A stretch of 64,000 bases of DNA, taken from Malania oleifera. Lineage: Eukaryota > Streptophyta > Magnoliopsida > Santalales > Ximeniaceae. Below, one piece after another: positions 3,491 to 58,083 of this stretch (positions are counted from its first letter, which is position 1; each line of letters opens with the position of its first letter). The DNA is taken from the NCBI RefSeq assembly GCF_029873635.1, contig NC_080422.1:2026001-2090000 (forward strand), read 5' to 3'. The position numbers and the translations under genes are program-made. Below the pieces are notes generated by a model. The model was not told where the DNA came from. It saw only the letters and a program-made list of their open reading frames with translations, and did no database searches.

Positions 3491-3491
3491 C

Positions 3492-8259: not shown

Positions 8260-10632
8260 ATATTTTAATCTTCCCTTAGCTCCTAGGTTTAGGGGTTGTG
8301 ATGACTGTAGGCTTGAGAAGTGGTTAGTGCCTAAAATGAAAATTCTCAGTATATGTATTTACTATACACTATTGTCATACTAAGAATCATAAGATTAGCA
8401 AGCAAATTCAAAAATTGAATAAAATCCACTTCCAAATAGACTAGGCACCATTGCTAGGTAAATATTTCCAAATGCTTAACCCACAATCAAATATAATACT
8501 TTAAGTTAAGCCACTATTGTCCATTGCATATAAATGAGCTTTAGGGATCCATCATATTCTATATATATTTAACCCTAATCTCATTAGTCAAAACTTAGTC
8601 ATCACTCTAGGTGTAAGCAATGATAATAAATTCCATATCTATCTTGTGCTAATAATAAGTCATCCCTCTCACAATCAAAATTAAAGGCATCTACTAGGGG
8701 ATTCGTATTTTATTGTTGAATCAAATTATTCCCTTTGATCTTAAATTATAAATCCTCTAATTTTGGTTTATATCCTCCATAGGAAATATTTACCATACCT
8801 CAATCACATCAGGTAAAGATCTACCCTCTCATTGGTTCGTATTCTTGCTCCAAAATTGTGATCATATCTAAAGGATACATTCCAATCACCAAAGTGTGTC
8901 AGTTTTTTTTTTTTTATATATATCCTCCACAACGCTCTTTGCTCGAATAAGTTAGGACATATTCTTTAGAATGCTTATCTTGTGTAATGTCCTGCTTCTG
9001 AGTACTCTCCTGAACTTAAATAAAATTTTTGATCTTTAAGAGTATTCATTCTTCACTTCTCACACAAAGCTCTCAAACATTAAATCATATCCTTTAGAGC
9101 TTTACATGCTTAGAGATGATTTGAATGGCTAATATGATCGCCTAGGTCTCAATCTAGATGAATGTATAAAATTCAAGTAGACCTATGCATGTGCAATTTT
9201 AAGTCGAAAGCCATTCTAGCTTGGGCCTCTTGCACGTATTGAGATTCATAAGAAAAGAGGCAGACATAGGCGTAGTACACTTAAAGAAATATTCATTGTG
9301 ACTTTTTGGTCCAATAAGCCTAAAGCATTCATGCCAAGTCTAAATTCATTGAAAATCTTAATAACCTTGGCTAAAGAAAGTAGATAATTAAAAAAAGACA
9401 TAAATTGAATAAGTGCATAACTTAGGGGGAGCATTTCTCTTCATGAATATATATACATTAAATGCTCTCATGATTTTCATCTTTTATGCCCATATGCCTT
9501 CATATGAAAAGTACTGAATTCCTACTATTCATTATGCATTAAATGAATATATCTTCTCATGAATAGTTTATCTTTTGTATCATTTGTTGATTACACTACT
9601 AAATTGCATGCCTGTGTTGAAAGCCTCCTACATGGCGGATGCAATTGATGAGAATTGCATGTTGGTAGTGGATATAGGTTCTCTTGTGCCTTGAACTGAA
9701 ATATAAATTACTTGATTGAACCTATCAGGTACAGGTTTTATGGGAAAATGTCTGATTTACAAACGGCATGCTGTCGAAATTTCGACAAGAATTTTCCCAA
9801 AAGTAAAACCTTGTACATAGATGATTATGATAAAATTAATGTTAAAATTTTTTTGAAAGGATTAGTGAAAACTCAAATAGATAATTAAACTTCATCCTAG
9901 AATAATCATCAAACGTTTAGAAAGGCTCAGATCCATCCCTATAGGAAGCGCATAAATGATCCATATGCATCACTTTCGTCTACTGAATTATTGAGCCTCT
10001 TATGAAATCCCTGAACATTATATCCTGCGCTTGAAGTTTTATGGTTTGATATGGAATATTCTTGGGTCATGAACGTTATTGCATGCCTTAATATATACTC
10101 TCTGATGCATCTATGGTCTATAGGAACAACTATACTATTCAAGGGACAAATGTAATTGACAAATATTCAGTATAGTTGATTTTAAAGATGGATTGATGGC
10201 TTATACTACTAAGCATAATGAAATTAATCTTTGGTTAGTATAAGTAGTTAAAGAATCTAAGCACGTACTCAAATTGATAGGGGGAGCATCTAAACATGAA
10301 TTCCAATCTTGTTTTACTCACCAGCAATTTTGGCTTAGATAAGTTTGTTATTCACTGTGACACGTGCTCAATTGTGATGACCTTATTGAATATCTTAATT
10401 GAAAAGTATAATACTTAGCCACATGTTCTTTGTGTTTGTCATATGATCTTGCATGTGATTGACAAACTTTTAGGATCATTATGGTTGTGGTTTTCTGGTT
10501 ACATTTCAGTTTGTGTGCTTAATTAGCAAACCAGAAAAAAATTGTGCTTGCTTGTTTTGAATTAAAGTTTCTTTTTTTAGCAAGCATATGCCCCTAGTAT
10601 TTATTAAAAACTTTAAGGGGATATATTTTTAT

Positions 10633-11413: not shown

Positions 11414-13150
11414 TGTTGACCCTATGGGTCATTCCCAGTTTTGATAATGACAAATACTCTTAGTATTTAATGTTTTCCTAAGTTTGTGTGCAGGTTTATA
11501 TTAGCAAACACATTGATGGCACATGAAATAAAGCATGAAGACCCTAAAGATCATTTATGTTGTAATTCGTTATTATTCATTTGGGTCTATAATAGTAACA
11601 TAGGAAATGTCTGTAATATTTAATGTATGTCATGCATGTAGGCATTACAAAACTCAAAGACCTTAAAATGACTCTAGGACCCTAGACATCACTTGAAAAT
11701 CAAATGACCTTAGATTTCGGTCAATCGACGCCAAATTTTTTCGGTGTCCTAAAGAAGACCTAGACTGACCTTAGGACTCCCTATAATTTAGATTAGCAAA
11801 AAACATTCTTTGAAAATTTTATTGCCCAAAATCTTCCCTATTTCCATATTCTTCATGCTCAAAGTCATATACTTTGCCATTGATCATTCTATTGCAAAAC
11901 CCTTTTGATAAAGAGTATTTTGAGTTATTCCATATAGTTCCTACGTGCTTATACTCTCATATAAGTGCATTGATTTTTTATTTTAGTGAGAGTAAGCCTA
12001 GAGGTGTTTCCAGTGATTTAATCCATAAATTCATTTGTGGGAAACCTTGTTAAGCTTGTGAGTCTTTGCATTCTCATTGCAAGACTCAAAAGCTTGTCCT
12101 GTGTTGTGAAGAAAAATATTTTTGACAAAACTTGTTTTTCAAAAATATCTTTTATGCTTGAGCTTTTGAAAATATTGTTTGAGATATTTGATTTTCATAT
12201 GGAAGGTTAAGCAAGGATTTTTCCAACGATTTAATTTGATAAATCTTGTGTGGGAAAAATCCTATAGCTAAGTGGGTCTTTGCATTGTTATTGCAAGACT
12301 CATTTGGGCTTGTATTTTGCATGTAAATTTTTTTTACTAGATTACTTTTAAAATATCTCCTTGTGCTTGAATATTGAGAAAGTATTGTTTAAAGATATTT
12401 AGAATACCCTTGGTAGTAATCTTTGAAACCCTAAGCTTGTGATTAAGATATAGTGATACATAGTTTCAAAGATTGTTCTAAAATACACTCTTGTGCTTGG
12501 TTAGATAAAGTCATTATTCTGAGTGTTGATTGCACACGTAGAGCACCGAGCTTATAGTTCGTACATTCTTGAGGTGCATTGATTGATTGATTATTTTGTG
12601 CTTAGTGGTAAATAATTTGCTTAGTGTAAGAAGCATATTTCCATGTACGCAAAAATTTGTATTTCACATTTGTTATATTCTGGGCACGGGTCTGAAGAAG
12701 GAGACTAGCCCTGGTAAATAGTCCCGGACTGGCTTAAACCCGATTAGGAAAGTTAGGCGCGCCATCTTGGTAAGGCGTGTTGGTTGAGGTCATCCCTGTT
12801 AATTGACCTAGTTGTAATCGGTTTCGCTCCATCCGTTAAGTAAGCATTAACGGATTCCTCAGGCTTACTAGCTAGAGGTGGGGATGTAGACAGTATTGGT
12901 CGAACCCCGATAACATATCGTGTGTGCATATTATTTTTTCATAATTTATTTACTGCACGTGTATGTTATTCTTCAATTGTTGGTGAATGCTGCGCATGAT
13001 TTAAATTTCCTCATATTATATTTATCTGCACATTTGGAATTCCATAGAAAGACCCTAGGTTGTGAAAAACTGCTAACATTTGGTTTAGCCTAGGAATAGG
13101 TTTTAAAATTTCAATTCACCTCCCCTCTTGGGAATACACCAAAGCTAACA
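11414..13150 (+). repeat. Element E 3' LTR (1737 bp, internally deleted)
   Basis: Matches the 5' LTR from its TGTTGACC start to about 11790 and from about 11810 onwards to CTAACA at 13150. The palindrome-rich block of the 5' LTR is missing at about 11790-11810. Twenty unexplained bases (13151-13170) follow before element B's LTR resumes. Confidence 0.85.
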
Positions 13151-13170
13151 ATTAAAAGGAATAAATTATG

Positions 13171-26258: not shown

Positions 26259-26605
26259 ATGGATTCAGGAAGTAGTAGTGCACATGCTGGAGGTGATGAT
26301 GCAAGACCTTCCAGTATGGGTGGCGGAGACCCTGATGTAATGCTACTTAGCATCACCCAGCAGGTGATGGTGGAGATGGCTAGAGGTTTAGGGGAGCAGA
26401 GTTGCACGACTGAGTAGGTCACGCGCACGAGACCCCCGTCGTTCTTTGGAGGAGCTGACCCACTCGTGGCTGAGAATTGGGTCTAGGATATAGAGGACAT
26501 GTTGACAGTTCTTCCGTATACAGATGAGTAGAAGGTACTGTTTGCGACATTTAAGTTGACAAGGGAGGCAAAACGCTGGTGGAGATCAGCGAGACTACTG
26601 GAGGA
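26259..26605 (+). pseudogene. Element D gag, part 1 (interrupted by CACTA)
   Basis: ATG at 26259, protein beginning MDSGSSSAHAGGDDARPSS. The frame shows stops where relatives have Gln or Trp (after SCTTE, AENWV, YTDE) and the gag landmark LTREAKRWWRSARLLE just before the CACTA insertion. It continues at 44284: removing the CACTA and one copy of its GGA duplication restores the same frame. The 5' leader 25867-26258 is plain. Confidence 0.85.
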
Positions 26606-26880
26606 CACTACAAAAAATAAGGTTATTAGTGAATGATCAAACTGTGACTAATAATCATAAAACCGTTACTAATAGTATTAGTGATGAATTTATAAGTATT
26701 AGTGACGATTTTAAATTAGTTGCTATATCTGCCATTACTACTATCTATTAGTGACAAATTTTGAAACCGTCATTAAAACCACAATACCGTTACTATAAAT
26801 TTTATATTGGTGACGGTTTTGATCCTTCACTAATATCTATAGACAATTATTCAAACTGTCACTAATAATTTAAAATTAAT
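26606..26880. repeat. CACTA left terminus and subterminal repeats
   Basis: Terminal CACTACAAAAAATA followed by alternating direct and inverted copies of a motif of about 20 bp, TTAGTGACGGTTT / AAACCGTCACTAATA, at roughly 26640, 26690, 26745, 26805 and 26850. In En/Spm elements such motifs bind the transposon-encoded TNPA-type protein. Confidence 0.88.
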
Positions 26881-28654
26881 ATTTTTTTAATCATTAATTC
26901 TTGTGAAAATCTGTAATTACATTTTCGCATATTCAACATTAAACCATAATTATTAAAAATATTCATAAATTATTAAAAATTCTAATTCAAAATCAAATAC
27001 AAATATATTATACAAATTCAGAATGTTTTATACATGAATCTCATATGTTCGGATAACAAAAAAATATATATATAAAAAATAAAAATAAAAGCTACATCCA
27101 ATTGTAGTGTTTGACATTGTGTTGATATTGTGACAACCGCAAACCCTACAAATTAAGAATTATAAAAAAAAAATTAGTGTACGATTTTTGACCATATACG
27201 TACTATAAGTATCAATGATTTGATAGAAAAATAATAAAACATTCAGACAAAGTTAAAAAAAAAATACTATTTTAAATAGCTAAGTTTTATTAATTTTAAG
27301 AAATTTTGGCAGCATTTCTTCTATAAATAGGATATTTTCCATAAAGATATGTTCAAAAACTGGGTGTTTACACTAAACAGTTCACAATAATATAACCAGT
27401 AATTAATGAATTTTATGAGTGCACAAGATCTTCATATAATCAGCATTAAATGTAATGTGTTCATGCATCCCACAAACAATCTATATCAAACTATAGTTTT
27501 ATGAAAAAATAGAATGTGATGTTGATAATGGTTTACATGATTTCTTTAGTACTCAAAAACAACTATAATAACCAAATAATGCAAATGAGTCCATTATTGA
27601 TCGAATTTTCACTTAGCATATGCAAAAATAAATTTAGAGATGAAGTTTAAAATTCATTTAAACTTCACTCATCCTTTCAAAAATATTTTAACATTTAGCA
27701 CACTATAATCGTTCTCACAAATATGGTATATGACTTTGATTATTTGGGAAGAAATTTAAAAAATTTTGGGCAGCATGCCGTCAGTAAATAGAACATTTCC
27801 CAAACCTTCAAGTCACAAAAGCATGCAATTCAGAAGATTTTTACATCATACAGATGCTCAATGTGCTCAAGACAACCTTATAACTCAAAAATAAAGACAA
27901 TGATATGCATAGAAGTCCATAGGATTATGTTTTCAAAAATTCTAGAAGTTTTGAAAAAAATTTGCCAGCATTTCCCCTGTAAATAGGACATTCTTCATAG
28001 AGATGTGTTTTAAACCTAAGTGTTTACACTAAATAGTTCAGAATAATCCAACCAATAATGACTGCACCTTATAAGTGGTACAAAACCAAAAAAAAAGAAG
28101 TAAGCTTTGAAACATTATGACCTATTTAAATTTATACACACAAACACACACACACACACACATACACATACATACATACATACATACATACATACATAAA
28201 GATCTTTATTTTGACTAGATTTTATGCATGCTTTTGATCTTCGTTTCCCTAATTGGGTCTTAAGTTGGGAGTTTAATGTTGTTAGATCTTCAGTTAAGGA
28301 GTTGGGAGGCTCCTGTATTACTTGTAGGCTATAGTGTTTGGAAGATTTATTTGGGAGGAGGTTAAGAAAGCATTGGAATTTAACAAATTTTCGATAGCAT
28401 GCCTTCTGTAAATAGAACATTTCCCAAACCTGCAAGTCACAAAAGTTCTTCCTACGTTTAACTAAGCCAGCAGCAGTAGTACACAACCTAGGGTCTGTCT
28501 ACGCATATGTGAAATTGCAAGAAAAATAAATCAAGTCCTAACAGCACATGCAATACAATTTCAGTATCTCCAACAATTCGCAATTCAACATATAAATATA
28601 ATTAAACAAGCAACAAAACTACCAGCATGCAGTTCAAACTACGTTTTACATACC
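26881..28654. other. CACTA interior, AT-rich, no gene recognised
   Basis: No frame with recognisable homology. It contains a duplicated block of about 130 bp (27290-27420 and 27945-28075, both with 'gtgtttacactaaa.agttca'). Four copies of a 'ggcagcatgccgtctgtaaatagaacattt'-like motif lie at about 27300, 27770, 27960 and 28390. There is a (CA)n(CATA)n tract at 28135-28198. The minus-strand frame at 28115-28486 has no known relatives that I recognise and runs into the CA repeat. Confidence 0.5.
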
Positions 28655-28795
28655 TTCTAATGAGAGGAGCCACCTGCATCATCTGGTCGAGATTGGTGCA
28701 TCATTTGTTCTAATTGCGCTTAATTGCATATTCAAAATTGCTGCAAGTGTGACTTGAACGTTGGACACCTTGTCTTTCAAACTCTGGTTTTTCAC

Positions 28796-31700
28796 TGTAG
28801 TGACCCAGAGAAATTATAGTATTTAAATAATGAAAGAAGAGAAAAAAAAGGAAATTGTAACAGGGCCTCGTTGACGAACACAGGGGATTCGTCAACGAGA
28901 ACACATGAGGGGCTCGTCGATGAGGACGTGTCTCGTCAATGAGAAGATATCGAGAGGATATGTCACAATTCTGAATTTCGTCGATGAGAGGTAGGCATTC
29001 GTCGATGAATGTTCTTCTTGACCTCGTCGACGAAAGCTAGTGTATAAATATGCCTAAACTTCATTTTTGGCTGAAAATTCACACGCAGACTTTCCTTCTT
29101 TCTCCTCTTCGGTTCCCTACCCTTCTCTCTAAATTTCTAGGTTGGATTCTCGCTGGTTTGACGATCTGAGGCCACCACGACACTTCTGGAAGAGTTCTCT
29201 TCAAATATGTTGGGGTGGATCGTTGGTGGGGCTAGCTTGAATTCCATCCCAGATTTAGGGTAAGGCTTTTTATTCATTATTTGACTTTTATGCAGTCATA
29301 GGAATTGTAGCAGTCAGGAAAATACTAAAGTTTTGTTCTGGGAGATATCATTTTCAGGGTGTTGAATGGGGAACCCTGCGGGTGCAGGACTGATTATCTT
29401 AGGGGGATTTTAGGAATCAGGTAAGGGGATAAACTAAGTTAGTTGTTTTTATGAAAATGTATGTATAATCTTACAACATTTAATTTCCGAAAAGTAAATA
29501 TATATTAGCATTATGTTTGGGAAAATACTACTGTAAATGACGTTATGTTTTAAATATGTGTAATACCCATTTTGTGTGGCATGAGTAGAATTTATGATGG
29601 ATTACTGTTTCTGGGAAAATGTTAAATGATACAAAGTTTTACTATGATATATTGACGTACTTGCCGAGAGTTTTATATTGTATATCGGCGTACGGGCTGA
29701 GAGTTTTATGTAATATACCGGCGTACGGGCCGAGGATGTTCTCACATGATATGCCAGTGTATAGGTTGAGCCTTTTATATGATATGCCGGCGTACAAGCC
29801 AAGCCTTTTATTTGATATGTGATACGGCGTAAGGGCCGTGATTAATAAAATACAAAATACCGCCGTAAGGGCCGAAGATTTTCATATTATGCTATGAAAT
29901 GTGATATGATGATATTGATTTGACTATTATTATTATGGAATAACAATGTATCACAATTTGAAATATGTTATATGTTATCAGAACTTGGTTGGCTAGGTTT
30001 AGGCTTACACGAGCACGGTACCGTAGCTATGTGATCATGATCATCATGATGTTAGTGTTATCGCTGTCGTACGGGGCAGCGTGAGGATGGATAGTCGATG
30101 TGGTTTATTGAAGTGTTGGTGCCCCTGGTGTATGGACCAGGTCTGGCAGACCCATCGTACTTACAGACTTTTTCTTTTGACTTGGTAGTGGTCGGTCAAC
30201 CATTGTCAGGTCTCGCCTTCGGGCCATACAACCTAGTCATGTGGGGGTAAGACATGACACCAGCCAGCTAACCTTCCAGGGTTGTTTTGTATTATTATTA
30301 TATGAGATGAATTATGTTTATGGAAATCAAGTATGTTCTATCATGATATGATTATATATGTTTTTCCTAGATATGATGCAGACAGTTTCACTAAAAATGT
30401 TTGTTGGCCTTACGAGGCTTAAAATCTTCTTATTTTATTTTGATGCTAACAAACAAGTGGAATTTAACATATTTGTGTGAGTAATATTTTTTTAGGGCTC
30501 ATATATGAAAGCAAGGTTAAAGTGCCCACAAGGATTATATATGAGAAAGCAAAGGTCAAAGTGATAAAGCTCAAAATTTGAAAGCTTGAAGAAAAGATGG
30601 AAGCTTGAAGAAAGACAGGAATGAGTTGTTGAAAGCCAAGGAATACTAAAAGATCCAAAGAAAGGCAAAGTGATAAAGCTCAAAGAAGATGGAAGCTTGA
30701 AGAAACAAAACATGAAGACTTAAGAATGAGAAAAGTTTTAAGAGTTTTCATGTAAGTACTTTAAATGTTTAAAATATCGTTTGCAATATTTTGAAGCTCT
30801 TAGGTTAACATCTTGGACCTAAATACCTTTTAAAATATCTTTAAAATAATTTATAAAGTCAAAAATTATTTTAAAAGGGTTAGAATCATTTTTGGAATAA
30901 AAAGCACCAAAAAGGGGTTTTTCTATTTGCTGTCAATTTTGATATAGTCGTATTCAGGTGTATTTTTTACTATCAAAACTTCATTATTTTAAAAAGTGAT
31001 GAACATTAAAGTTTTAGTATTTTTTCTTAGTTTTCCTTTGACACCAATAACACCTAATTTGGAGTTATACATAAAAAGTTATGGTTAAAACACTGAAGGG
31101 GGGTCACTGCTGTCAGTCAACTGAACACTGTTCACGGGAGGGACTTCAGATGACTGAACAGATGACTTCGGTCGACTGAAGATTAAGTTCAGTCAACTGA
31201 AGATTTTTTGGACAGAATATACAGCAGGTAGTAGCAGTTCAGTTGGCTGAACTTATGACTTCAGTCAACTGAACACTGTTCAACGGGCAAAAAAATTTTT
31301 TCTCATGTTTTAAAATATAGCCGTTTGAGCTCTAAACTTTCTAAAATTTTGGGACACTCTCAAAGGAAACTTTTGCAACATGGAAACAGTTTGAAAGCCT
31401 ATAAATACATGATTTTGTAAATTAAAACATATCCAAGAATTGAAAAATCTGCTTGTAAAGCTGAAAGCACTCTTGTTCTTCCAAAAGCTCTCTTGCTCAC
31501 TCATTGCAAATCTATTTTGCCAAGAAATTCTGAAGTGCTAATTATTCCTCCTTTGAATTCCTACTTCTAATCCTCTTCTAAGAAGGATATTGGTGAATTC
31601 TACACTTGAGCTTCATGGTATTTCATATTGGTATTTTACATTCAAAGTATATAGTGCTGAAATTGTACTAACTTGCTCTTTGAGAGAGTATACTTGTATG

Positions 31701-33072
31701 CAAATCTTATCTTGTGTTTCTTATAGTTCTTTGACGTTCCAAGGGTCGTTTGGATCGTTGGCTAAGCAAGGGGACATTGCTTAGAGAGGCGGACTCTAGC
31801 CTATGTAAGGAGTGACCGAACAAGGGAATATCGTTTGGAGAAGGCGGGCTCTAGCCTTAACCAAGGAGTGTTGTAATCGGCGTTGTTTCACCTGTCAACG
31901 AAACTGAACTAGTGAATCCTTTGGTGGTTTGCCAAAGGCGAGGACGTAGGCTGGGTATAAGCCGAACCTCGTAAAAATCTCTGTCTCATTCTCTCTTTCT
32001 CTTACTCTTTATTTTCAGCATATTTAAATTGTGTGGATGGTTTAAAATTTGGGAATCATATAAACTACATATATTTGGAAAAACAAACAAACTTAAGGTT
32101 TAATTTTGATTTGGGTTGCGGAAACAGAAAGGGAGTACGTTGGTGACACCATATCTTGCGGAAACCTTACGGGAGTACGTTACTTGGTTAACATCCCAAA
32201 GATAAATTTACCAAGAGTTTATTTGAGTTCTAAATATTTGGAAAAAGTGATTTGATTCATCTATACAGGGCTTTACATCAGCAAGCATAAATTCTCATTC
32301 ATTATAGGGCTTGGTTCAAATTTGGCAAATATAAACAAACAACCATCTTGAATTGTTATATTACCAAAGTGTTGAATACTTTATATCTTGGTTTGGTTGT
32401 TTGTTGTTTGACTTATACTTGGAAAATAAATTGATTGAAGATTGCTTTTAATTGATTGGTTGTTTAATTAAGTTGTTGTGTGATTGGTGAAATTAAACAA
32501 ATAAGTTAAAGAATTGGTTAAGTGTTCAAAGAAGTTAAGGATTCTTAAAAGAAGTTAAAAGAAAGTTTTAAAAGCCAATTCACCCCCCCTCTTGGGAAGC
32601 TATTTCTAATTTCAATGTTTATATACTGTTATATGTACAACACGGAAATACTTATGTTGTCACACAATGGTATTAGTTTATTTTCCCTTACCGAGAGGTG
32701 TCTCACCCCGACTTACATGAACATTTCAGGAGCCCCAGATAGGAGAGCGGATAAAGCTCCACAGAGGTAGTTACAGCTGATCTACCCTCTCTGAAGGGTA
32801 AGTATTTTGATAGGGTCAGATAGATTTTGTGGGAAGTGACCCTGGGACTCTTTTATGTAATTGGGTTGGTGCATGTTCCTATAATGGATGTAGTAACTCT
32901 GGTATTGTGTTAAATGGTATTTTTGATTTATTTATGATATCCCGTTTCCTGCTCCTTAGGTATTGGAATGAGTGTTAGGTTACCCCTGGTACCTTCGGGT
33001 CCAGGTGGATTATCAATATCTATAATTATTATTGAAAAAAAAATTTATATAGAAATTAAGCAGGTTGTCACA
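28796..33072 (+). mobile_element. Solo LTR of the F-type gypsy family, itself carrying a nested Copia solo LTR
   Basis: Starts TGTAGTGACCC and ends AAGCAGGTTGTCACA. These ends match the minus-strand LTR of element F (49885 to 47723). Flanking pentamers TTCAC (28791-28795) and TCCAC (33073-33077) look like a duplication with one mismatch. Net length without the inner insertion is 2064 bp. A CGTCGACGA cluster lies at 28865-29035. A degenerate tandem repeat built on 'ggcgtacgggccgag' lies at 29655-29880, with the same repeat in F at 48700-48960. Confidence 0.88.
30402..32614 (+). mobile_element. Solo LTR, SIRE-like Copia family
   Basis: A 2213-bp TG...CA unit with a perfect 5-bp duplication ATGTT at 30397-30401 and 32615-32619. 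It starts TGTTGGCCTTACGAGG. Near its end it has the 'ccaattcaccccccctcttggga' signature shared with element E's LTRs (two bases here are Copia-typical spacing variants), and a region like E's 6600-6830 tract (31790-31980). A cluster of TCAGTCAACTGAA-type palindromes lies at 31105-31280. There are no coding domains. Confidence 0.88.
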
Positions 33073-33173
33073 TCCACTGTGACTTTAGACACTATGTCTT
33101 TCAATTGCTGGTTCTCCATTTCCATCATATGCATCTGCTGAACCATCTTCTACACTCGAGACTCGGCGTCTTC

Positions 33174-33269
33174 ACATTTGATTAGATCTCTCACAAGACC
33201 ACGAATATCACATCAAGCAGAGAAGTTCACAACACCCCAACATTCAATCTTTACTAGCTCCACTAGTTT
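33174..33269 (-). pseudogene. Captured AGO4-like exon, copy 1 (truncated, fused to transposase)
   Basis: The minus strand reads, after a TTTTAG acceptor, KLVELVKIECWGVVNFSA, then a TGA stop, then CDIRGLVRDLIKC. At that point it departs from the other copies and runs on as EDAESRV into the transposase coiled coil. The last residues KGI and the donor site present in copy 2 are missing, so the breakpoint of capture or rearrangement is at about 33174. Confidence 0.75.
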
Positions 33270-33617
33270 CTAAAACAAAACACAAAGCATTTTATCAGAT
33301 CAGTTGAACTCAGATCCTAACATCACAATGTTCAAGAAGAAGAAGAAGCACCTCATTATTGCGAGGAGGAGCCACCGTTTGTAAATTGGATATTTTCCCA
33401 TAAAACTTGTACCTAAAAACTGGTTGTTTTCGGTAAATAAATCATTTCAATCATGCAACAACCTAAATCCACTACTAGCATGCAATTCACAATACACTGC
33501 ATCAACAATGCGGTTGGCGTTCAACACAAGCATGTATTCTAGCTCACGAATTCTACAATTCATATAACATAATACTATCATCTCTAATATTGCAGAAAAC
33601 ATAATAATAAAACTTAC

Positions 33618-33731
33618 AATTCCTTTCATTTCTCCACATTTGCTTAGATCTCTCACAAGACCACGGATATCACATCAAGCTGAGAAGTTCACAACACCCC
33701 AATGTTCAGTCTTTACTGGCTCCACTAGTTT
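33618..33731 (-). pseudogene. Captured AGO4-like MID-domain exon, copy 2 (complete exon)
   Basis: A 114-bp, 38-codon exon on the minus strand, bounded by an acceptor TTTTAG and a donor GTAAGT. It reads KLVEPVKTEHWGVVNFSA, stop, then CDIRGLVRDLSKCGEMKGI. Argonautes of the AGO4/6/9 clade have at the start of the MID domain the block (K)K-VEP-K-E-W-VVNFSARCD, with a DL-K-G--KGI run after it; the match extends over almost the whole exon. The stop (TGA) stands where the family has Arg (CGA/AGA). Exons on either side of it in AGO4 were not found here, so only this exon with partial introns was captured. Confidence 0.8.
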
Positions 33732-34072
33732 CTAAAACAAAACTCAAAGCATTTTGTTAGATCAGTTGAACTCAGATCCTAACATCACAATGTACAAGAA
33801 GAAGCACCTTATTGTTGTGAGGAGGAGCCACCATCTGTAAATTGGACATTTTCCCATAAAACTTGTACCTGAAACCTGATTGTTTTTAGAAATAAAGCAT
33901 TTCAATCATGCAACAACCTAAATCCACTATCAGCATGCAATTCACAATATACTGCATCAACCATGCAGTTGGTGTTCAACACAAGCATGTATTCCAGCTC
34001 GCGAATTCTACAATTCATATAACATAATACCATTGTCTCTAATATTGCTGAAAAAATAATAATAAAACTTAG

Positions 34073-34186
34073 AATTCCTTTTATTTCTCCACATTTGATT
34101 AGATCTCTCACAAGACCACAGATATCATGTCAAGCTAAGAAGTTCACAACACCCCAACGTTTAATCTTTACTGGCTTTACTAGTTT
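34073..34186 (-). pseudogene. Captured AGO4-like exon, copy 3
   Basis: Also 114 bp, reading KLVKPVKIKRWGVVNFLA, stop, then HDICGLVRDLIKCGEIKGI. It has the same TGA position as copies 1 and 2. The 5' splice donor has changed from GTAAGT to CTAAGT. It carries more missense changes than copy 2, so it is the most decayed of the three. Confidence 0.78.
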
Positions 34187-34361
34187 CTAAAACAAAATGC
34201 AAAGCATTTTATCATATTAGTTGAACTCAGATCCTAACATCACAATGTACAAGAAGAAGCACCTTATTGTTGTGAGGAGGAGCCAGCATTTGTAAATTGG
34301 ACATTTTCCCATAAAACCTATACTTGAAACCTGGTTGTTTTCAGCAAATAAATCATTTCAA

Positions 34362-34615
34362 TGGGTGGCGCAGCAAAACGTGCCGGGAGCAACTACACAT
34401 CCTCAAGAGTCACCCTTGGTGCTCTCGCCTCATCCGAAATCCGTTTGTGCTCACTCAGGACCGCTTGACCCCTGGAAGAAGACTCTCCCCTTGGCAAGTC
34501 CTGGACCCTCTGCCACTTGGCAGCGTATCATGGTGAGTAGCCGTGCTTTGAGGCAGCTCGAGGCTTCATTCATGGAGGCATTGACTAGGAAAGACGAAAC
34601 CCTAAGATTTATGTT
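34362..34615. other. GC-rich island of unknown origin in the CACTA
   Basis: A sharply bounded GC-rich stretch in AT-rich surroundings, starting where tandem unit 3 is broken. The plus frame reads VAQQNVPGATTHPQESPLV and later RALRQLEASFMEALTRKDE, the last part plausibly helical. The opposite strand is also open at 34451-34633. I do not recognise it. Candidate explanations are a further captured exon or part of a CACTA-encoded protein. Confidence 0.4.
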
Positions 34616-36136
34616 GAAAATTTTTTTTTTCAAAGGGGCATACTTAACAATAACATTACGCGAAAATATTCACCCCTATTTATTAAAAAAGTTCAACATA
34701 AATTTAATTTTAAAACTCATTTACTAAATAAGTAAAGTATGTTAAAATTCGACTCGATTTGGACCAACTTGATTGTAATCTTACCTAACAAAAACATTAC
34801 GAGAAAATATTCAATTAATAGGCAGATGTATACAACTCACCCCTTTCATACCATTGGAGACATGTGTGGATGTGGTCAAGTGATCAACTATGGTCAACTC
34901 AAACATAGACATGCTATTTATGGTTCCAAGAACATTACTCATCTCATTTGGTGCTAATATAGTTATATACTTCAACATCTATTATCTCATATTTTGGAAA
35001 AGTTTTTAACAAAATTTTGACAGCATACCGACTGTAAAGTAAACATTTCCAAAAAAAATTTTTACATGAAAAAGAGTTTATATATAAGAGCATGCGAGAA
35101 CCTATATTCACTACCAGCATGCAATACACAAATCTGTATCAGCCATGCATAAGGCATATTAACAACCAGTATGGCAACTCAATCCAATATTTCACAAAAG
35201 ACGCAATATAATTTCAATAAGAGCAGAAAGTCTTAACACAACACTCATATGGTAAACAATACACTAATAAGAAAGGAATATACATTCAAATGGTGAAATA
35301 AACTCAAATTACAAACAATCAAATATATCAAGGTCGTAGATCTTTGATGCTGACCCTGCATCATTTGCACAAAAAAAAAAATCCTAAAATATGCTTTCTA
35401 AGATAAGGAGCAATGTCTATTGATGCAGTATTATACAAACTATCCAACGAGGTGGATTAATGCCTACAAACAACACATTGCTAGTTTGACAAAATAGGAG
35501 AACTAGAGAATAGATTTGGGACTACCATTCTAAAGCAAAAGCAGGGCACTCGATGCCAACCAATAAAAAAAACAACATATACAAAAACAGCACCTTCTAA
35601 ACCGCCAAAAATTACTAGCTCAAATTAATTACCCAAAAAAAATGTTGATAGAAAGCAGCGAAACTATCTAAAAAGTACAAAAAAACCAAAATCCAAAATC
35701 TCAACTAAATAAGTTCTCTTGAAGGACTTTAGACTGTAATTTTCTGCATATAAAACAAGAGGATTTTATTCGAGTCATTTGCTGAAAAAGGTAAGCTATC
35801 CATAGACTATCTAATCCAATCCATGGACAAATGGAACATATCAAAATTAAAGAAGGATCACAAACTACGAATATAAACACATTGGCATGATGTGTAAAAT
35901 ATATATTTGTAGGCCACTTGTTTAGACTGAGTGATGGGTGGTTTTACAGACCACTTGTTGGCCATTGCCCATTGATGATGATGAGATTACAAAAAATCAA
36001 ATATAAAATTCAATGCATATAAACTAGATTTTTTAAAAAAAATGGTATGATGTGTAAAATATGTGACTAGAATAAATTATTTTGTGAAAAAAAAAAATAT
36101 ATTTTTTACTTTTTAAGAATGAGATAAAATAGAACA
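34616..36136. other. CACTA interior, AT-rich, no gene recognised
   Basis: Contains a small duplication ('aacattacg.gaaaatattca' at 34656 and 34793), another copy of the GGCATGCTG-type motif (35010-35055), and a minus-strand tract near 35330-35370 whose translation (QMMQGQHQRST) resembles the transposase coiled coil. No intact frame of interest. Confidence 0.4.
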
Positions 36137-38997
36137 TGTAATAACCCAAAAAAAAATTAATTTTAAAAAAGTTAAGAGTAATTATTAATTAATTAATTTA
36201 TTAATTAAACATTATTAAATTAATTAAATAAAAAAATAATAGAAATTTTAAATATAAATTATTATGAATTAATTAACTAATTAAGTATTATTAAATATGA
36301 TGTATTAAATAAATAATATGATATACATATATATATATATATATATAATATAATATAATATAGTATTATTATGTTATATGTAAAGTAAGTAAAAGAAAAA
36401 AAAAGAAAAAAAGAAAGAAAGAAAGAAAGAAAGAAAGCTTGAAGCTTCAGAGAGAAGCTTCCTGCAAGCCGTCTCTTAGTCTCACGCTCTCCTTTCTCTG
36501 CCTCTTCGTCTCTGCTTCTCTCTCTCCCCTTATTTCTGAACGGATATTCGACCAATCGGGAAACGGAAGGTGCCTTTGGATTCCTAATTCTGCCACCAAC
36601 ATTTCTATTAGAGTGGATTTGTCGTGGGATCCTAGGGTAAGGCAAATTTTCCCTAATTTCTCAATTTCTCATTAAATCCGCTGTTGAATCGACGATCAGG
36701 CACCACCATGGGATCCTAGTCGTGATCGTCTTCATTTTGATATGAGTAAATTTCTAATTGGGGTTTTCTAGGCCCCACTCCAAAGTGAGAGTGAGATTTG
36801 AGAAATTTGGTAATTTAGCTATATTTAAGGGTATAATTATTTATTTGGTATTTAAGGGTCTAGGAAGTATTAAAATAATATTTTATTTATGCTTAATTTA
36901 ATGGAATTAGGATTTTTGATTTAGGGTCCGAGTGAGCGCCGCAGACATATTTTTGGGGTCCCTGTTGGCGTAGTTCAAGAAACTAGGTAAGAGAAAAAAT
37001 ATATATTAAATTGGAATTTTTATGAATTTAATGAAAAATAAATTGTGTTATATATACGTGTATATGTTTCGATACGAATTTAAAATGTCAACCATTTAAA
37101 TTATATTTTTTTGAATTTAGGGCTGTTTATTAGATATGTATATGCAAAAATGAACTGATAAAAGTGGAAAAATATTTTCAGGGTAATTATGCAAGGAATG
37201 AAAGGTATTTTCGGTATATAAACGTTAAATGTTGGTTGGCGTATTTTATAGGCAATGTATAAATTTTATTGCTAAACTGTGTGACATGAGATTCTGTGCA
37301 AATATATGTTAAATGTATGAGATGCAGGTTAAGTAAGTAATGCATTGTGAATAAAACATGATGTGGACTATGTTGCTTGTGTGTGTTAATGCAACCATGT
37401 AAACAGCTGAAAAATGTTGGGTAAAACAGTTGAAAGATATTGGGTAAAATAGCTGAAAGATGCTGAGTAAAAGTGGAAAAATATTTTCAGGGTAATTATG
37501 CAAGGAATGAAAGGTATTTTTGGTATATAAACGTTAAATGTTGGTTGGCGTATTTTATAGGCAATGTATAAATTTTATTGCTAAACTGTGTGACATGAGA
37601 TTCTGTATAAATATATGTTAAATGTATGAGATGCAAGTTAAGTAAGTAATGCATTGTGAATAAAACATGATATGGACTATGTTGCTTGTGTGTGTTAATG
37701 TAACCATGTAAATAGCTGAAAAATGCTGGGTAAAACAGCTGAAAGATATTGGGTAAAACAGCTGAAAGATATTGGGTAAATGTGTAACAACTGAAAAATG
37801 TTGGGTAAAACAGCTGAAAGATGTTGAGTAAATATATGATAGCTGAAAAATGCTGGGTAAAACAACTGAAAGATGCTGGGTAAAATAGCTGAAAGATGCT
37901 GGGTATGAAATGAAATGAAATGAAAAGGGAAATGAATTAAATGGAAATAAAATGTGAAATGTGAATAATGTAAAATGAGAAAGAGTCACTTAAAGTGAAA
38001 TGAAGTGAAATGTTAAAGTTATGAACATGAACATAGGTGAATGGTTAAACAATGACATAAAGAATAATGTATTATGGTATTAGCAGTATTTATGCTAGTA
38101 GAACATGTTACGTTCGGGCGAGACAAACTCTTTGCCCGAGGGCTTGCTGAGAAAGGCAAGTGCCCTGGTTGTATTAGGTGTAGTAGTAGGCTGCATAACG
38201 TACTAGGGTAGAGGGAAATTACTTGTATGGGCAGGTAGATTTCCCAATTCTTGGGAGCCTTCGCTAGTAAACTTTTGTATGAACTGTGTGAGTACGAGAT
38301 CAATTTATCACTTGAGGGCTTACTGAGTAAGGTGAGTGCCCTAGTATGCTTTAGCTGTGACCTTTGGGTTGCCTTAGTATCAGAGCAGATGGGTGCTACT
38401 TGTATGAGCGAGTAATTACCCCTATCCTTAGGTAATCTTGTGGGTTAAATCTTTTGCATGTGTTTGGTTAGGATCAGAGAATGATTTCAGAAATTATGTT
38501 AACGATTTTCAAATGTTAAATTTTATGTTGTTATATAAACTCATGTTAGCCACACACTATTTTAATATATTGTTTCTTCCCTTACTAAGATGTGTCTCAC
38601 CTGAATATAAATTTATCTTTTTCAGGATTTCTTCGAGATCGAGCTTAGAGAGCTCAAGGTTTTATAGCATTATTGGGAAATACGAAAAGAAAATGGTATA
38701 TTTCTATGTTAATTTTGGGGAATGTAAATATTTATGTTTTATGTCTTTATGTTTTAAGACAGTTGAGTAAGGAATGAATGTGAAAATACTGAAATGTTTT
38801 GGGAGTTATGTAGATTTATGAAAATGCAGGTGATGGATGATTTATTATGGATTATAGTTAGAATTAGTAAACTCTGGTATTATGTTATATGGAGAATATG
38901 TTTATATTTTCCGCTGCGTATATGTTGATTATGGATTATCAGAGATTTTATCAAATATAACACGTCAGACTCGGGTTTAAGGGTTCGAGGCGTTACA
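36137..38997 (+). mobile_element. Solo LTR (gypsy type) inside the CACTA
   Basis: A 2861-bp unit starting TGTAATAACCC and ending GGCGTTACA, flanked by GAACA (36132-36136) and GAACT (38998-39002), a duplication with one mismatch. It holds AT and GAAA tracts (36324-36350, 36395-36437) and a direct duplication of about 307 bp (37161-37400 against 37468-37707). There is an array of 'gctgaaagatgctgggtaaaa' units at 37405-37905, and 'gagggctt.ctgagtaagg.gagtgccct' segments (38135, 38320) also found in the D LTR (25115). No coding domains. Confidence 0.85.
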
Positions 38998-40821
38998 GAA
39001 CTTTCTTTAATTTAAATTAAATAAAATATATTTAAACACTTTATTTTCAATAAATTAAGATTTAGATCTAAAAAAAATGAAAATTTGTTAAGCTAAAAAT
39101 ATAAGTGTAATACTATAAATATTAAATAATGAAAGCATATCTTGAACGAAAAAAGGTAAAACAAATTAATCTTTTTCACATATTTTAAAACTATTGGTTC
39201 CCAAAAACTATTGTAAAGATCTAATGTCGAATAAATAATACTAACTAGCTGAGTTCTGCAAGATCAGTTATTGAAAAATAATTATAGGTGCAAAAAACTC
39301 TCAAAAACACAGAAGTCGGATTTATTTAACATTTAAAAATTCATCAATTAACCACTAAATGAATTAACAAATAAACAATTAAATAAATTTTATTAATATT
39401 ATTACAATGTATACGAGTAACAATAGTGTATTACGTCGAACTACATATGTACTTACTTGAGCCAAATTCATAACCATACACACCCAATGTTATGCATATT
39501 TGGCAGGTACTAGGTGCATTTTATGATTACGTATAGCATTGATATACAACTACACAACACTAATATTTTGTTAGTAAATGTAATATTACTATTTTTCTGA
39601 AAGTATCAAAACATGCACAACTACATTGCTTTTGACATAACTTACTCTACCCAAATTGAGTCTGCCAATATAGCATTAAGAAGTAAAGCTAAAAGAATTT
39701 GAAAGTAGAAGATGTTAAGGATTTTTTTTTTTTTAAAAAAAAAAAAACAAAGAAAATGCTAATGATAAAATTTTAGTTTTCTCCACCACAAACAGTGCAG
39801 AAGCTGCCATAAGTCATCAAAATGAGAAAAAAAAAATATCCAAAAATAAAACACATTAGCAGTCTAGAAAGGATAAAAAATAATAACACAATTGCAATGT
39901 ACCCACTAGGATTCATCAAACTAAGACCCAGTTCATCTAAGAGATCCTATGCAGCCTAGTCATGTCTTGCATAATCTAAAAGGTCCATTGTTTGGAAAAT
40001 CCTCTTATTTATTGACTCCTTAGGGAACACAGTCAATCTAACTTTGTAAGACGTAGTAGCAAGTAGGGAGATTAGCTTTAGAATTTGGATTGTTTATCAG
40101 TCAATTCCTAGATTCCTTGTCCCCAAACTTTGAATGAGTTTAGGGACAGTGGAACTAGCCGAACAATTCTAAATTGCAAGACTACACCCTGAAGTATTTG
40201 CACTAGGTTGTCATTAGGCATTTACATTTTTTTTATTTCATAGGATTTTTTTGAGTGTTTACTTAGTATACACACATAAATCTCAGCCCTAGATTTATTT
40301 AGCAACAAATGAACAGTGGGGAGGAATTAAAACCCTTGCACAGTGTCGCATTGGTTTGTCATGTATTTATCTCCAAGCCAAAAAATTAGCAAGAGTTTTC
40401 ACTATGCGGAAAACAAATTCCAGGACTAAATCCAACCAACAGGAAAAAGTTGCCCTATTCATTGTCCAACGAAAGAAATTTCACAATGCAGCTCTCTCAA
40501 TTTCCTACTCATCCCTTTTTCATGCCTCCAGAATCATATTTTCTCTACCAAGCCCAATTATTGAAACAAATGAAACCCATCAATTACATTAGGAAATATT
40601 TATTATCAAAGATATCAACGGAATACATCATAGAATCACCAAATTCCAAAATTAAACCTTCAAATTTTCTCACGATTTTAATAAAGAAAAATATAATGAA
40701 GCAATGCTCCCCCAATAAGATTGAAAAATAGAAATTGGGAACTTTCAAAGGTTACAAAAATAAAAAATGACATAAAATAAAGTTCATAAACCAAAAGCAA
40801 ATATGGGTATTAAAAATTTTA
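38998..40821. other. CACTA interior, no gene recognised
   Basis: AT-rich; no frame has recognisable homology. The two overlapping frames at 40356-40731 are of a length expected by chance and have no motif. This stretch may be intron or untranslated sequence of the transposon gene or of a captured gene. Confidence 0.4.
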
Positions 40822-41015
40822 CCTTGAAATGAATTTCTCAGAATTTTTCTTCCGAACGAAGGTGTGCTGAAGCCTGGGGCGATTTTCTAAAGAGAGATAG
40901 GTTTATAAGATTTTATGGATATGTGACGAAGAAAACCCATCATTTCTAGAGACTTTTTCGAAGGAAATCTTAGAACAGAAGGGGAAGCAATGGAGGAAAC
41001 ACATTCAACTGCCAT
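40822..41015 (-). pseudogene. Possible captured first exon (transit-peptide-like)
   Basis: The minus strand has an ATG at 41015 followed by MAVECVSSIASPSVLRFPSK, a Ser-rich, basic, acid-poor start typical of plastid-targeting peptides. The frame continues with one TAG after about 42 codons and ends at ATTTCAAG|GTAAAATTT, a good 5' splice donor at about 40822. It lies between the CACTA interior and the solo LTR at 41088. I do not know the parent gene. It could instead be the CACTA's own 5' exon. Confidence 0.3.
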
Positions 41016-41087
41016 TTTCTTTGGCTGAGCTCAACCCACATGGAAACACTGCTCTGGTTTTACAAGTTTTAAGAGATAGAGAGATAG

Positions 41088-43322
41088 TGATGACCTTATA
41101 GGTCACGCTCGGTTTTGATAATGACAAATACTCTTGTATTTGATGAATATTTAGTTCTTGTGCAGGTCTACATTAGTAAATACGTTGACGGCACGAAGAG
41201 AAAGTGAAGTTGAAGACCAAATCTCTTTTTGTAATGCATTTCATATCTATTTGGTCTGTAATAATAATTAGGATATTTGGTTTGTAATAAGCACACATAA
41301 CACATGCATGGTTTATTTTGTAAGCTCAAACCAAAAAGTGGCCATAGAATGACCTTAGGGCTTTCCTTTCGGTCGACCGACAATGGACTTTTTTGGTGTC
41401 TTGAAATTGGACCCCAAGTTACCCTAGGACACACAAATTTTCATATATACTTGTTAGGCACTTGAATAGGGCTTGTATGCTTCAAGATGGGACCGAAATG
41501 CACACTTTGTGCACTTTCGGTCGACCGGCCAACACAGTTCATTTTGGCCTGGTCGACCGAACCAGACCTGGGTCAACAGTTGACCAAGGTCCTGGTCGAC
41601 CGAACCAGACCTGGGTCAACAGTTGACCAAGGTCCTGGTCGACCGAACCATTGCAGTTCAAAAAGTCCCGGTCGACCGAAACCTCCCTGGGTCAACAGTT
41701 GACCAAGTACCTGGTCAACCGAACCAGGTAGTTCAAAAAGCTCTGGTCGACCGAAACCCTTAGGGTCAAAAGTTTGACCATCTGGTCGACTGAGACAGAA
41801 ATGAACTCCAACTACCTGGTCGACCAAGGGTCCTCGGGAAAATTCCCAACTGTCTAGTCGACCGAACCAGCCAGTTCAAAATGGCCTAGTCGACCGAACC
41901 TCGGAAAATTGAGAAATCACCCTCTCCTGGTCGACCGAGCCCTCAGTTCAAAAGTCCCCTGGTCGACCGAACCATATGAGACTTGATCGACCGAACCTAT
42001 TTTGGTCGATCGGACCTCTCGGGTTGCCCTGATTTTTACTGTAGTTAAATATCTTTTAAACATGGTTAAAATGGTTTAAGTGTCATTAAACTTTTTCAAT
42101 AATTCCTAATAGGTCCCCAACGGTCAAAAACTTTAGTATGTCTATATATACCCTTTCATTTGGGAGAATTAAGTATCGATTAGCAAATATATTCAAAAAT
42201 TCTCTCTCAAGCTAAATACATCCTACTTCTCATACTCTTGCAAAATCCACTCATACTTACTCTCTTCCATTGCCAAAAGCCTTTGTAAGTTGATTAAGTG
42301 ATTGTATTGATAAGTTTCCTCTCATTCTTTGATTGTTTGAATTGATTTTCTCGAGAGCATTACTTAAGTATTCTTAGGGGGCTTTTCTCATAAGCCTATC
42401 ATAAGAAGACTTTGCCAAGCTTCTGAGTATTGCATTTTAAGTTGCAATATCTTAGGAAGCTTTGTATTTGTTTTTGGTTTGCAAAAACATTTTCAAACTC
42501 ACTCAAATATCTTGTGAAATCTTTATTGAACTATTTGTGAAAAGATATTTGTGTTTGATACATTAGTCTTTGTGGCAATATTTATTCAAGTATATATCAT
42601 TTGCTGAATACAAAGATTATCTATTTTGCAATCCAAGCATATACATATTCATGTGATAGAGATATTCTACTGAGTGATATTCTTAAGGCTTGGTTGGTAT
42701 TCTGTGTGAACACATTTGATTGAAACATTTTGAAATACACAGACTGTTATTGATACTCTCGCGTACTCACTACACTGATAGAAAATATCGTTAAGAGTTG
42801 AACTAGTTAGACCACACTAAGCTTACATTTTAAATCATCTGTGGTGTTTGTGATTGTGCGCATTTTGGGTACAAATCTGTTTTACGTGAAAGCACCCTTA
42901 TATTGTACCATTTGATTGTATATCTGAGAGATTCCAAGCGTGGCCTGAGGGGGCGGTAATCCAACCCGGTAAGGATTGGTGTAAAGGTTGAGGGTAGCCT
43001 TGTGTTAATTTGACCTGGTTTGTATAGGTGCCGCTCCACCCGTTTAAGTAAGCAAGTTATTGTGATAATCCTTGTGCTGGTTAGCCAAGGTGGGGACATA
43101 GACAGTTGGCCGAACCTCGATAACATATCTGTGTGTCACCCTTCTCTTTACTGCTTTCTGGTGCTTATGTAATTGATTAAACTGCTTTATTTAATTTATG
43201 ATATTACTCACACTAGATTGACCATAGGATTGTGAACATACTGCTGTTAAGAGGAATACCTAGGGGAAAGATTTTAAAAATACCAATTCACCTCCCTTCT
43301 TGGAATCACGGTAAAGTTAACA
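41088..43322 (+). mobile_element. Solo LTR, SIRE-like Copia family (related to element E)
   Basis: Starts TGATGACCTTATAGGTC and ends AAAGTTAACA. It follows element E's LTR through 'gataatgacaaatactctt', the later 'ccgaacctcgataacatatc' tract and the 'caattcacctcccttcttgg' end. Flanking pentamers GATAG and AACAG do not match; the flanks are GA-rich and may have shifted. It carries the densest set of GGTCGACCGA palindromes in the window (41370-42010), including a 43-bp tandem unit. Confidence 0.8.
41540..41720 (+). repeat. Tandem 43-bp palindromic repeats in the LTR
   Basis: The units alternate CTGGTCGACCGAACCAG with GGGTCAACAGTTGACCAAGG. Two adjacent near-identical copies begin at about 41550 and 41593, with decayed copies after. 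Each half is itself palindromic (GGTCGACC and GGTCAACAGTTGACC). The open frames that span it (41487-41702 and its complement) only reflect the repeat. Confidence 0.85.
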
Positions 43323-44283
43323 AACAGAGAGAAAGAAACATAAGAGACGAAGAGAGATTGAGAGATGAAGAGACAGAGAGAGAGACTGGAGAGACAAAGA
43401 GAGATTGAGAGATTGAGAGATGAAGGGAAAAATAAGGAGGCTTGGAGGGAAAAGAATAACATTGGGGTATGCGCGTGCGGCTTGTCAATGTCAGACTATT
43501 AGTGAGGAATCCAAAAAATTTGTCACTAATAGTGTTTAATAATTTTTTTTTAAAAAAATAAAAGAAGTATTAGTCACGAATTTGGAACTGTCACTAATAA
43601 AAGGATAATAGTGACAAAAACCAAAATTCATCACTAAAACTATGAAATAAATTTTTTATTTTTATTTTTAAATAAAAGAAGTATTAATGAAGGTTCCCAA
43701 ATCTGTCACTAATAAGGGGATAATAGTGACAAATCATCAAATCCGTCACTAATACTATAAAGTAAATTTTTTTTAAGAATAAATACATATTAGTGACGGT
43801 TCCCAAATCCGTGACTAATAAGGGGATAATAGTAACGAATTATCAAATCTATCACTAATCCCTTAAAATAATTTTTTTTTAAAAATAAAAATAGTATTAG
43901 TAACGGTTCCTAAATCCGTCACTAGTAAGAGGCTAATAATAGTAGTATCAAATTCGTCACTAATACTCTGAAGTAATTTTTAAAAAAAATAAAAATAAAA
44001 GTAGTATTAGTGACGGTTCCCAAATCTGTCACTAATAATGGTCTAATAGTGACAAATCTTCAAATTCGTCACTAATACTCTGAAATAATTTTTTTAATCG
44101 TCACTAATAAGTGTCTACCGCAAAAATCGTCACTAATATTTTCCCGGAATAATTTCTACGTGAAAAATATTTTCCCGCGATATTTTTTGGGGGTTTAGTG
44201 ACGAAACTATTAGTGATGGAATTGAATTCGTCACTAATAATTTTGTCACTAAAAATCAGTTTTTTTTTTTTTTTTTTGTAGTG
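43323..44283. repeat. CACTA right terminus and subterminal repeats
   Basis: A GA-rich leader (43323-43440) is followed by at least ten copies of 'tagtgacggttcccaaatccgtcactaata', in both orientations, from 43490 to 44250, then a T-run and the terminus TTTTGTAGTG at 44283. The motif is the same as at the left end. Confidence 0.9.
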
Positions 44284-44467
44284 GGAGTAGAGACTTGATC
44301 CTGTAGCGGTGACGTGGAGCCGCTTCAAGGAGATCTTTTTCGAGAGATACTTCCTCACTACTGTTAGAAGTGTGAAGGCAGTAGAGTTCTTGCACTTGAC
44401 GCAGGGGCAAATGATGGTACAACAGTATGCAGGCAAATTAGTTGAGGTGTCCCACTTTGCCCCATAT
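44284..44467 (+). pseudogene. Element D gag, part 2 (3' side of the CACTA insertion)
   Basis: Continues D's gag in the frame broken at 26605: a TAG in place of the family Gln, then RLDPVAVTWSRFKEIFFERY, VKAVEFLHLTQGQMMVQQYA and VSHFAPY. It stops abruptly at about 44467, where minus-strand element F sequence begins. Element B has PDEEKKARKFEDDL next. Confidence 0.88.
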
Positions 44468-57808: not shown

Positions 57809-58083
57809 TTACTTTGGGGGTTTGCCGGCGGCTGGCGGGGGGGTGTAGTGGTGGAGCTGGCGGAGGTTGATGGGATAGCAGAGGGGCTTGGGGCCGTCGA
57901 GGAGGTTGTCGGCAATGAGGCGATTGGCAGCTTCGGTGGGGTGGTAGGCGTCCCAGAACACATACTTGGATCTATCTTCACACACCACTGAGCTGTTCTT
58001 CTCTTCATCAGTAGTGTTCCCTTGGAAGCATATGAAGGGTGGGATGTACCCCCCGCAGCATGGATCGTCCGCATTCTCAAACC
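57809..58083 (-). CDS. GDSL lipase exon 5 (C-terminus, catalytic Asp-His)
   Basis: Begins with the second and third bases of a Gly codon after a CTAG acceptor. It encodes [28 protein letters not shown] (block V with DxxH) and CYPINLRQL, and ends in a Pro-rich tail with TAA at 57809. It completes the hydrolase; no lesions seen. Confidence 0.92.

Follow-up and report, generated by a model that had tools for sequence, protein, structure and literature searches.

Why should a transposon carry a piece of its host's own silencing machinery, and why three times in a row? AGO4 is an effector of RNA-directed DNA methylation. The window analysed here is a stretch of 64,000 nucleotides from the genome of Malania oleifera. 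Read from its letters alone, it had been said to contain a CACTA transposon with three tandem copies of an AGO4 exon, and the original prediction went on to suggest that such an element might give rise to siRNA, or be a source of silencing in trans, against the host AGO4 gene. The answer that we consider probable as a whole is that a CACTA family captured pieces of AGO4 and spread them, with the roles for the array and for certain hairpins that are proposed below. Capture and spread in themselves are near certain; a small-RNA role of the pieces, as far as it can be judged from the letters, is possible. How transposons escape RNA-directed DNA methylation is described as poorly understood in the study of the best precedent, as outlined there (PMC3459959).

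The array occupies positions 33169-34362 of the window, on contig C6, and consists of three head-to-tail repeat units whose exons lie on the minus strand. The repeats start at 33169, 33631 and 34086, and repeats 2 and 3 are 93% and 90% identical to repeat 1 over 174 nt. About half of each unit is AGO4 and the remaining ~220 bp are CACTA-like. In unit 1 (33169-33361, minus strand) the AGO4 piece is shortened. It is 82.9% identical to host AGO4 over 193 columns with one 6-base gap, and its exon part (33174-33269) is cut about 18 nt short of the exon end and joined to a coiled-coil exon of the element. Units 2 (33582-33817) and 3 (34037-34272), on the same strand, each hold a 236-bp piece, respectively 89% and 84% identical without gaps to host C2:129163130-129163365, with exons at 33618-33731 and 34073-34186 and a TGA at codon 19 in both. 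The CACTA-like halves, also assigned to the minus strand, are the spacers at 33362-33581 (unit 1), 33818-34036 (unit 2) and 34273-34362 (unit 3, a partial half at which the array ends, as delimited by comparison of the repeats and the host). These halves are without AGO4 match and resemble other CACTA-like stretches of the window; the spacer of unit 1, for instance, is 72-90% identical in short stretches to 9599-9766 and 35090-35148.

Translation of exon copy 2 gives KLVEPVKTEHWGVVNFSA*CDIRGLVRDLSKCGEMKGI and that of copy 3 gives KLVKPVKIKRWGVVNFLA*HDICGLVRDLIKCGEIKGI, where the asterisk is a stop. The stop codon is common to all three copies in the window. Alignment to host AGO4 shows both splice sites intact in copy 2, and in copy 3 an intact acceptor together with a GT donor changed to CT. 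The original prediction had placed three copies at these positions, about 455-462 bp apart (462 and 455 bp as measured), had credited copies 2 and 3 with an acceptor and copy 2 with a donor, and had called all of them pseudogenes at the protein level. It was right on each point.

Is the exon really that of AGO4? A 41-residue stretch of copy 2 was compared with 5.8 billion proteins. When candidates were limited to roughly 500-1575 amino acids, Argonaute domains were present in all 77, and every specifically named one was AGO4, 4A or 4B. The best match was the Malania oleifera AGO4-like protein (85%, E 3.9e-12). Among shorter proteins there were two matches in 323 candidates, a 134-amino acid AGO4-like fragment and a 204-amino acid AGO4A of Camellia; no CACTA part was seen in either, and the idea of an annotated CACTA-AGO4 fusion protein was rejected. 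The searches of long and of short proteins thus both ended at AGO4, and neither an absence of Argonautes among the best hits nor a match confined to a CACTA-encoded protein was encountered. The 38-amino acid exon alone gave no match in Pfam or PDB, being probably too short a query.

The host AGO4 gene is at C2:129160755-129167049, where the individual matches to AGO4 protein are 88-100% identical, and its source exon, C2:129163216-129163329, encodes KLVEPVKIERWAVVNFSARCDIRGLVRDLIKCGEMKGI. At the DNA level the best unit aligns with this gene over 236 bp without a gap (E 6e-86), and the aligned span takes in 10 nt at the end of the exon before, an entire intron of 76 nt, the exon of 114 nt and then 36 nt of the intron that follows. 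Since the match spans introns, the source was genomic DNA and not messenger RNA. Codon 19 is CGA in the host and TGA in the array.

The carrier is a CACTA (En/Spm-type) element of 17,678 bp, including later nested insertions, on the minus strand at 26606-44283. Its termini are CACTACAAAAAATA and CACTACAAAAAAAA; among the pairs of CACTA ends in the window, the terminal bases at 26606 and 44283 agree at 13 of 14 positions and begin with CACTA. Reading of the flanks shows a GGA target-site duplication on both sides, at 26603-26605 on the left and at 44284-44286 on the right. Once joined, the flanks read as a retrotransposon gag in a single frame through the insertion site (RWWRSARLLEE*RLDPVAVTWSRFKEIFFERYF). 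In two relatives (C2_72361405 and C4_92917160) similarity ends exactly at 26606. Subterminal repeats of the TAGTGACGG type can be read by both ends of the element, those by the right end at 43490-44260. With CACTA termini, a 3-bp target-site duplication and a clean empty site, the carrier is what it had been taken for, a CACTA transposon.

The coiled-coil exon, read on the minus strand, is now in two parts. Its upstream part (33073-33165) is in frame with AGO4 copy 1 except for stops, and its continuation (28650-28794) lies beyond a later LTR-type insertion (28795-33072) that splits the exon and is foreign to the original element. This insertion is absent in relatives: 28199-28798 and 33073-35459 are contiguous in, e.g., C4_5893792, and a relative without the insertion reads LKDMVSNVTVENQSLKDKVPNVEATLATIL at the coiled-coil exon. 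Two more LTR-like insertions, judged by eye, lie inside the CACTA element at 36138-38998 and at about 41085-43310; one of the two has a 309-bp tandem repeat and the other short GGTCGACCGAACC-type repeats.

Scans of the three minus frames of 26605-44301, and of plus frames for 33060-42061 only, gave no Pfam transposase, so the window copy probably needs help to move. As far as scanned, it would be a non-autonomous element, such as the CACTA superfamily permits. It has host gene DNA between its termini, and the fragment occurs at several places, as in Pack-CACTA elements. The likeness to Pack-CACTA, as outlined in two reports (PMC8903248, PMC13317346), lies in non-autonomous CACTA-type ends around host gene DNA that has been relocated. 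The differences from what is outlined there are that the Malania piece forms tandem repeats inside the element at all 21 loci read, and that several segments of one silencing gene are dispersed.

One might instead suppose that the array is a duplicated host AGO4 exon, given that tandem exon duplications occur in genes as a matter of general knowledge, or else a repeat within a CACTA-encoded protein, with no capture at all. We give this next to no credence, since the array occupies a fixed position within sequence of the CACTA family, is found on many chromosomes and lies apart from the AGO4 gene, and the match extends into AGO4 introns. These two facts, the dispersed CACTA setting and the introns, refute it. 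Intron-bearing host AGO4 DNA in tandem units inside a CACTA element is captured and multiplied DNA, as the original prediction had it.

How far has the array travelled? Searching the genome with the DNA of unit 2 gave at least 161 matches when the best 40 of 3470 first-look candidates were scored; all genome match counts given here are lower bounds of this kind, from the best candidates scored, except for two pattern counts. The first of those, with a 26-mer of the array exon, finds 154 places within two mismatches (control, 0), and the 100 of these that were listed group into 62 clusters, each with matches on a single strand, spread over 13 contigs. Thirty excised array loci merge into 21 places, the window included, with 69 units in total and 2 to 9 units read per place, some arrays running off the end of the stretch read. 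There are 58 units with a whole exon; TGA stands at codon 19 in 51 of them, the AG acceptor is present in 53 and the GT donor in 54. The junction between AGO4 and the coiled-coil exon is the same in 10 of the 21 loci, including that of the window, and units are as alike within loci (identity 0.886, 52 pairs) as between loci (0.887, 938 pairs). The common junction and these near-equal identities suggest a single origin of the array, followed by its transposition.

The units have been decaying since. Divergence at codon positions 1, 2 and 3 is 8.8, 6.2 and 3.8% in 45 full units. Together with the nearly universal stop, this leaves no sign of an AGO4 protein made from the array. The AGO4 half of the unit, at 6.0% divergence, is hardly more conserved than the CACTA half, at 7.3%. 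In the same 45 units C has changed to T at 20.6% of CG, 17.9% of CHG and 6.0% of CHH sites. By its sequence context, such a pattern is a methylation-type mark, and we infer that it reflects RNA-directed methylation. These figures bear on the suggestion that an element with part of an essential gene inside it can be silenced only at a cost to the host, and for that reason persists longer. An epigenetic conflict or camouflage of this kind is discussed for captured plant fragments, in general terms, in PMC13317346 and PMC8978399. For the elements with the array we think it improbable: as transitions at CG and CHG are about three times those at CHH, these elements look heavily methylated and were seemingly not spared.

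AGO4 is also present in the genome in a second arrangement. Comparison of AGO4 protein with the genome gave, among the best 50 of 1209 candidates scored, many pieces of the last exon, mostly with 85-96% identity; in four, where the match continues further, it is 65-74%. Eighteen excised last-exon loci correspond to 16 distinct places. At 12 of these there are two inverted arms of about 300 bp, composed of the last exon and 3'UTR, which are 88-97% alike and separated by a spacer of 79 to 360 bp; the other four have a single arm. An example of a hairpin locus is C7:10333112-10333805. Further places were chosen by their flanks only (the best 40 of 4073 candidates were scored, and the sample was the first 23 rows less three already included). 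An AGO4 3' piece was found in 20 of 20, with both arms, some partial, in 16 and one arm in four. The second pattern count, made with a 27-mer for this lineage, stands at 241 matches when up to two mismatches are allowed (control, 0). Of these, the 100 that were listed make up 79 clusters, and each of the 21 clusters with multiple matches is a plus-minus pair. The computed fold of one hairpin locus has an energy of -638.2 kcal/mol, whereas 20 shuffled versions average -186.3. Such a fold-back from a silencing gene, in the manner of miR820, is thus found in the sister lineage and not in the window array, as 32400-35100 contains no inverted pair of 30 nt or more.

What carries the hairpins? At locus L069 the carrier begins with CACTACTAAAAATAAG at 814 and has terminal repeats, inner repeats and a coiled-coil exon in the order of the window element, at 67-88% identity; at this locus, the one read at length, no right end could be located for the element with the hairpin. 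At the other hairpin loci, the flanking sequence is similar to CACTA-like parts of the window. By resemblance, then, the hairpin carriers appear to be a related, CACTA-like lineage. Within the window, 9243-9870 is about 70-80% similar both to the hairpin flanks and to the CACTA half of the array, and is perhaps a piece of another CACTA-type element. Two loci, L024 and L028, have the AGO4 3' region in other arrangements. In L028 gene positions 8301-9295 and 8209-7631 are oppositely oriented, perhaps as an intermediate in hairpin formation.

Is the coding sequence of the hairpins maintained? An N:S of 66:51 (1.29, against 3.08 expected) in the first loci pointed to purifying selection on the coding arms. 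We rejected this, because those loci had been ranked by protein score; the 20 loci chosen by their flanks gave 176:55, or 3.2 against 3.33 expected, which is neutral. Hence nothing shows selection to keep the match to AGO4.

Two more parts of AGO4 are dispersed. Gene positions 3003-4782 form a third segment in three loci (L092, L093 and L030+L091). A stretch of host intron, 4113-4357, is missing from all three, and L031 has the same gap. This stretch is flanked by GAGAGTC repeats in the host; either it was inserted into host AGO4 after capture or the loci share one deletion. Parts of 5833-7389 (PIWI exons) form a fourth segment in five loci, L094-L098, and end at 7389 in four of them. This segment may explain many short PIWI matches in the genome. 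Two of the three loci with the third segment adjoin CACTA-type subterminal repeats; the five loci with the fourth showed no CACTA match in their short stretches. The carriers of both segments are less certain as CACTA elements. Outside the AGO4 gene, and with one paralogue match left out, there are at least 23 AGO4 matches of 85% or more among the best 50 of 1209 candidates. A GDSL esterase/lipase gene of the host served as control and gave no match of 75% or more outside its own locus among the best 104 of 200 candidates scored. Compared with this one control gene, AGO4 is unusually dispersed. The GDSL gene itself lies in the window at 57805-63313 on the minus strand, and one of its exons is 99% identical to a Malania protein.

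Could the pieces act on AGO4 through small RNAs? Silencing in trans requires exact matches. Of 91 24-mers in the host exon that gave rise to the array, 10 are found exactly in the window array and 23 in the 21 array loci. For the AGO4 3' target it is 82 of 275, in 38 hairpin-family loci (two places counted twice), and for one exon that was not captured, 0 of 214 in the AGO4-bearing loci analysed. The sequence therefore permits the role that had been suggested for the window array, that of a possible siRNA source or trans-silencer of AGO4, and the sisters with inverted repeats would be the better candidate source of small RNA.

The course of events that we favour is as follows. An ancestor of the CACTA family took up host AGO4 genomic DNA, introns included, and a 236-bp piece of it with about 220 bp of the element was duplicated head to tail. 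The array then travelled with the element to dozens of places, its exon nearly always with the CGA to TGA stop and drifting free of protein constraint. In a related CACTA-like lineage the last exon and 3'UTR, mostly as an inverted repeat, have reached scores of places. As to effects, the window array may for the most part be a methylated and decaying passenger, contributing no more than siRNA that matches one AGO4 exon. The sisters with inverted repeats, if transcribed, would produce double-stranded RNA of about 300 bp with exact 21-24-nt matches to AGO4 mRNA, and this could dampen the host's silencing effector, much as miR820 does with OsDRM2 in rice.

It may be, on the other hand, that the AGO4 pieces simply ride along with a CACTA family that does well, and that neither host nor element is affected by them. 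This is a serious contender, to which we would give slightly less than an even chance. The arrays are unconstrained and the hairpins neutral, and capture of fragments by CACTA elements and, separately, tandem arrays in them have been reported, as summarised in PMC8978399. It is less at ease with the dispersal of several distinct AGO4 segments, and with long inverted repeats in high copy number, which should be diced if they are transcribed.

The opposite possibility is that AGO4-bearing elements were favoured, because their small RNAs lower AGO4 and so weaken RNA-directed DNA methylation. Reasoning by analogy, it has a precedent in the miR820 of rice CACTA elements, as outlined in PMC3459959, and the long, near-perfect inverted repeats, their copy number and the exact 24-mers shared with AGO4 would all suit it; the want of protein-level or sequence constraint on arrays and hairpins does not. 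At 15 sites of the 3' end an A/T in host AGO4 stands against a C/G in the transposon consensus, and at 2 sites the reverse holds, compared with 64 and 51 sites for the other three captured parts combined (Fisher p = 0.015), which would fit methylation of a target. However, this signal is post hoc, has p = 0.31 when set against transversions, and may partly be produced by the greater depth of the arm consensus (31 sequences, versus 3-5 in two other segments). The last exon of host AGO4 has no CpG in 183 nt, yet among the 21 exons two more are likewise free of CpG, including an uncaptured one, and the CpG ratio is about equal for captured and uncaptured exons (0.386 versus 0.407). Methylation decay of the captured host exons was accordingly dropped as a candidate, the CpG ratio being no different and the 3' end offering a single weak post-hoc signal. 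On balance we regard selection for counter-silencing as doubtful. Equally to be kept apart from capture and spread is the stronger form of our own proposal, an RNA weapon that evolved independently of rice miR820 and is aimed at the RNA-directed DNA methylation effector, in which 21-24-nt RNAs from the hairpins would lower or methylate AGO4 with the arrays adding to the effect; judged on sequence features, this seems unlikely.

The precedent deserves a closer comparison. As outlined by Nosaka et al. 2012 (PMC3459959), rice CACTA elements carry pre-miR820, which resembles OsDRM2 in one exon and intron; OsDRM2 is lowered by miR820, and with less OsDRM2 various transposons are expressed more. Nipponbare has five miR820 copies and a BB genome at least 18. 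Common to that account and to Malania are a carrier of CACTA or, for the Malania hairpins, CACTA-like type, a fold-back similar to a host gene of RNA-directed DNA methylation, homology that extends into an intron, and multiplication with the element. In Malania, however, the gene is AGO4 and not OsDRM2, the window element has a tandem array, the sister fold-backs have arms of about 300 bp, the copy number is higher and the system is known from sequence alone.

Other parallels are partial. In Chenopodium, CACTA elements contain captured fragments as well as tandem arrays, but the arrays, as summarised in PMC8978399, are satellite DNA apart from the gene fragments, whereas the Malania units contain the fragment. 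Captured pieces can give siRNA that matches the donor, as in the reservoirs outlined for maize (PMC13317346). Those concern Helitrons, Pack-MULEs and Sireviruses, and here the donor is the silencing effector itself. Gene capture by CACTA elements and arrays inside them were thus already known separately, in what these reports set out (PMC8978399, PMC8903248, PMC13317346). Titles and abstract openings of the open-access literature yielded no report of AGO4 fragments in transposons, and in the literature searched miR820-OsDRM2 was the only case found of a small RNA made by a transposon against RNA-directed DNA methylation. If the proposed role is true, Malania would provide a further case after miR820, in an unrelated plant, with an Argonaute as the target and scores of dispersed copies. 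Even if the pieces are inert, one silencing gene has been captured and multiplied far beyond the single control gene tried.

Two further features of the window may be mentioned. Next to the array, 34365-34600 is GC-rich and has a plus-strand open frame (WVAQQNVPGATTHPQESPLVLSPHPK...RALRQLEASFMEALTRKDETLR) without a Pfam match. CACTA relatives share it, with 83% identity over a portion of its length in L070, and it is possibly another captured piece. Elsewhere, at 4710-7064 and 11414-13153, lie long repeats in direct orientation; the parts listed are 91-94% alike, and the repeats look like the LTRs of one retrotransposon.
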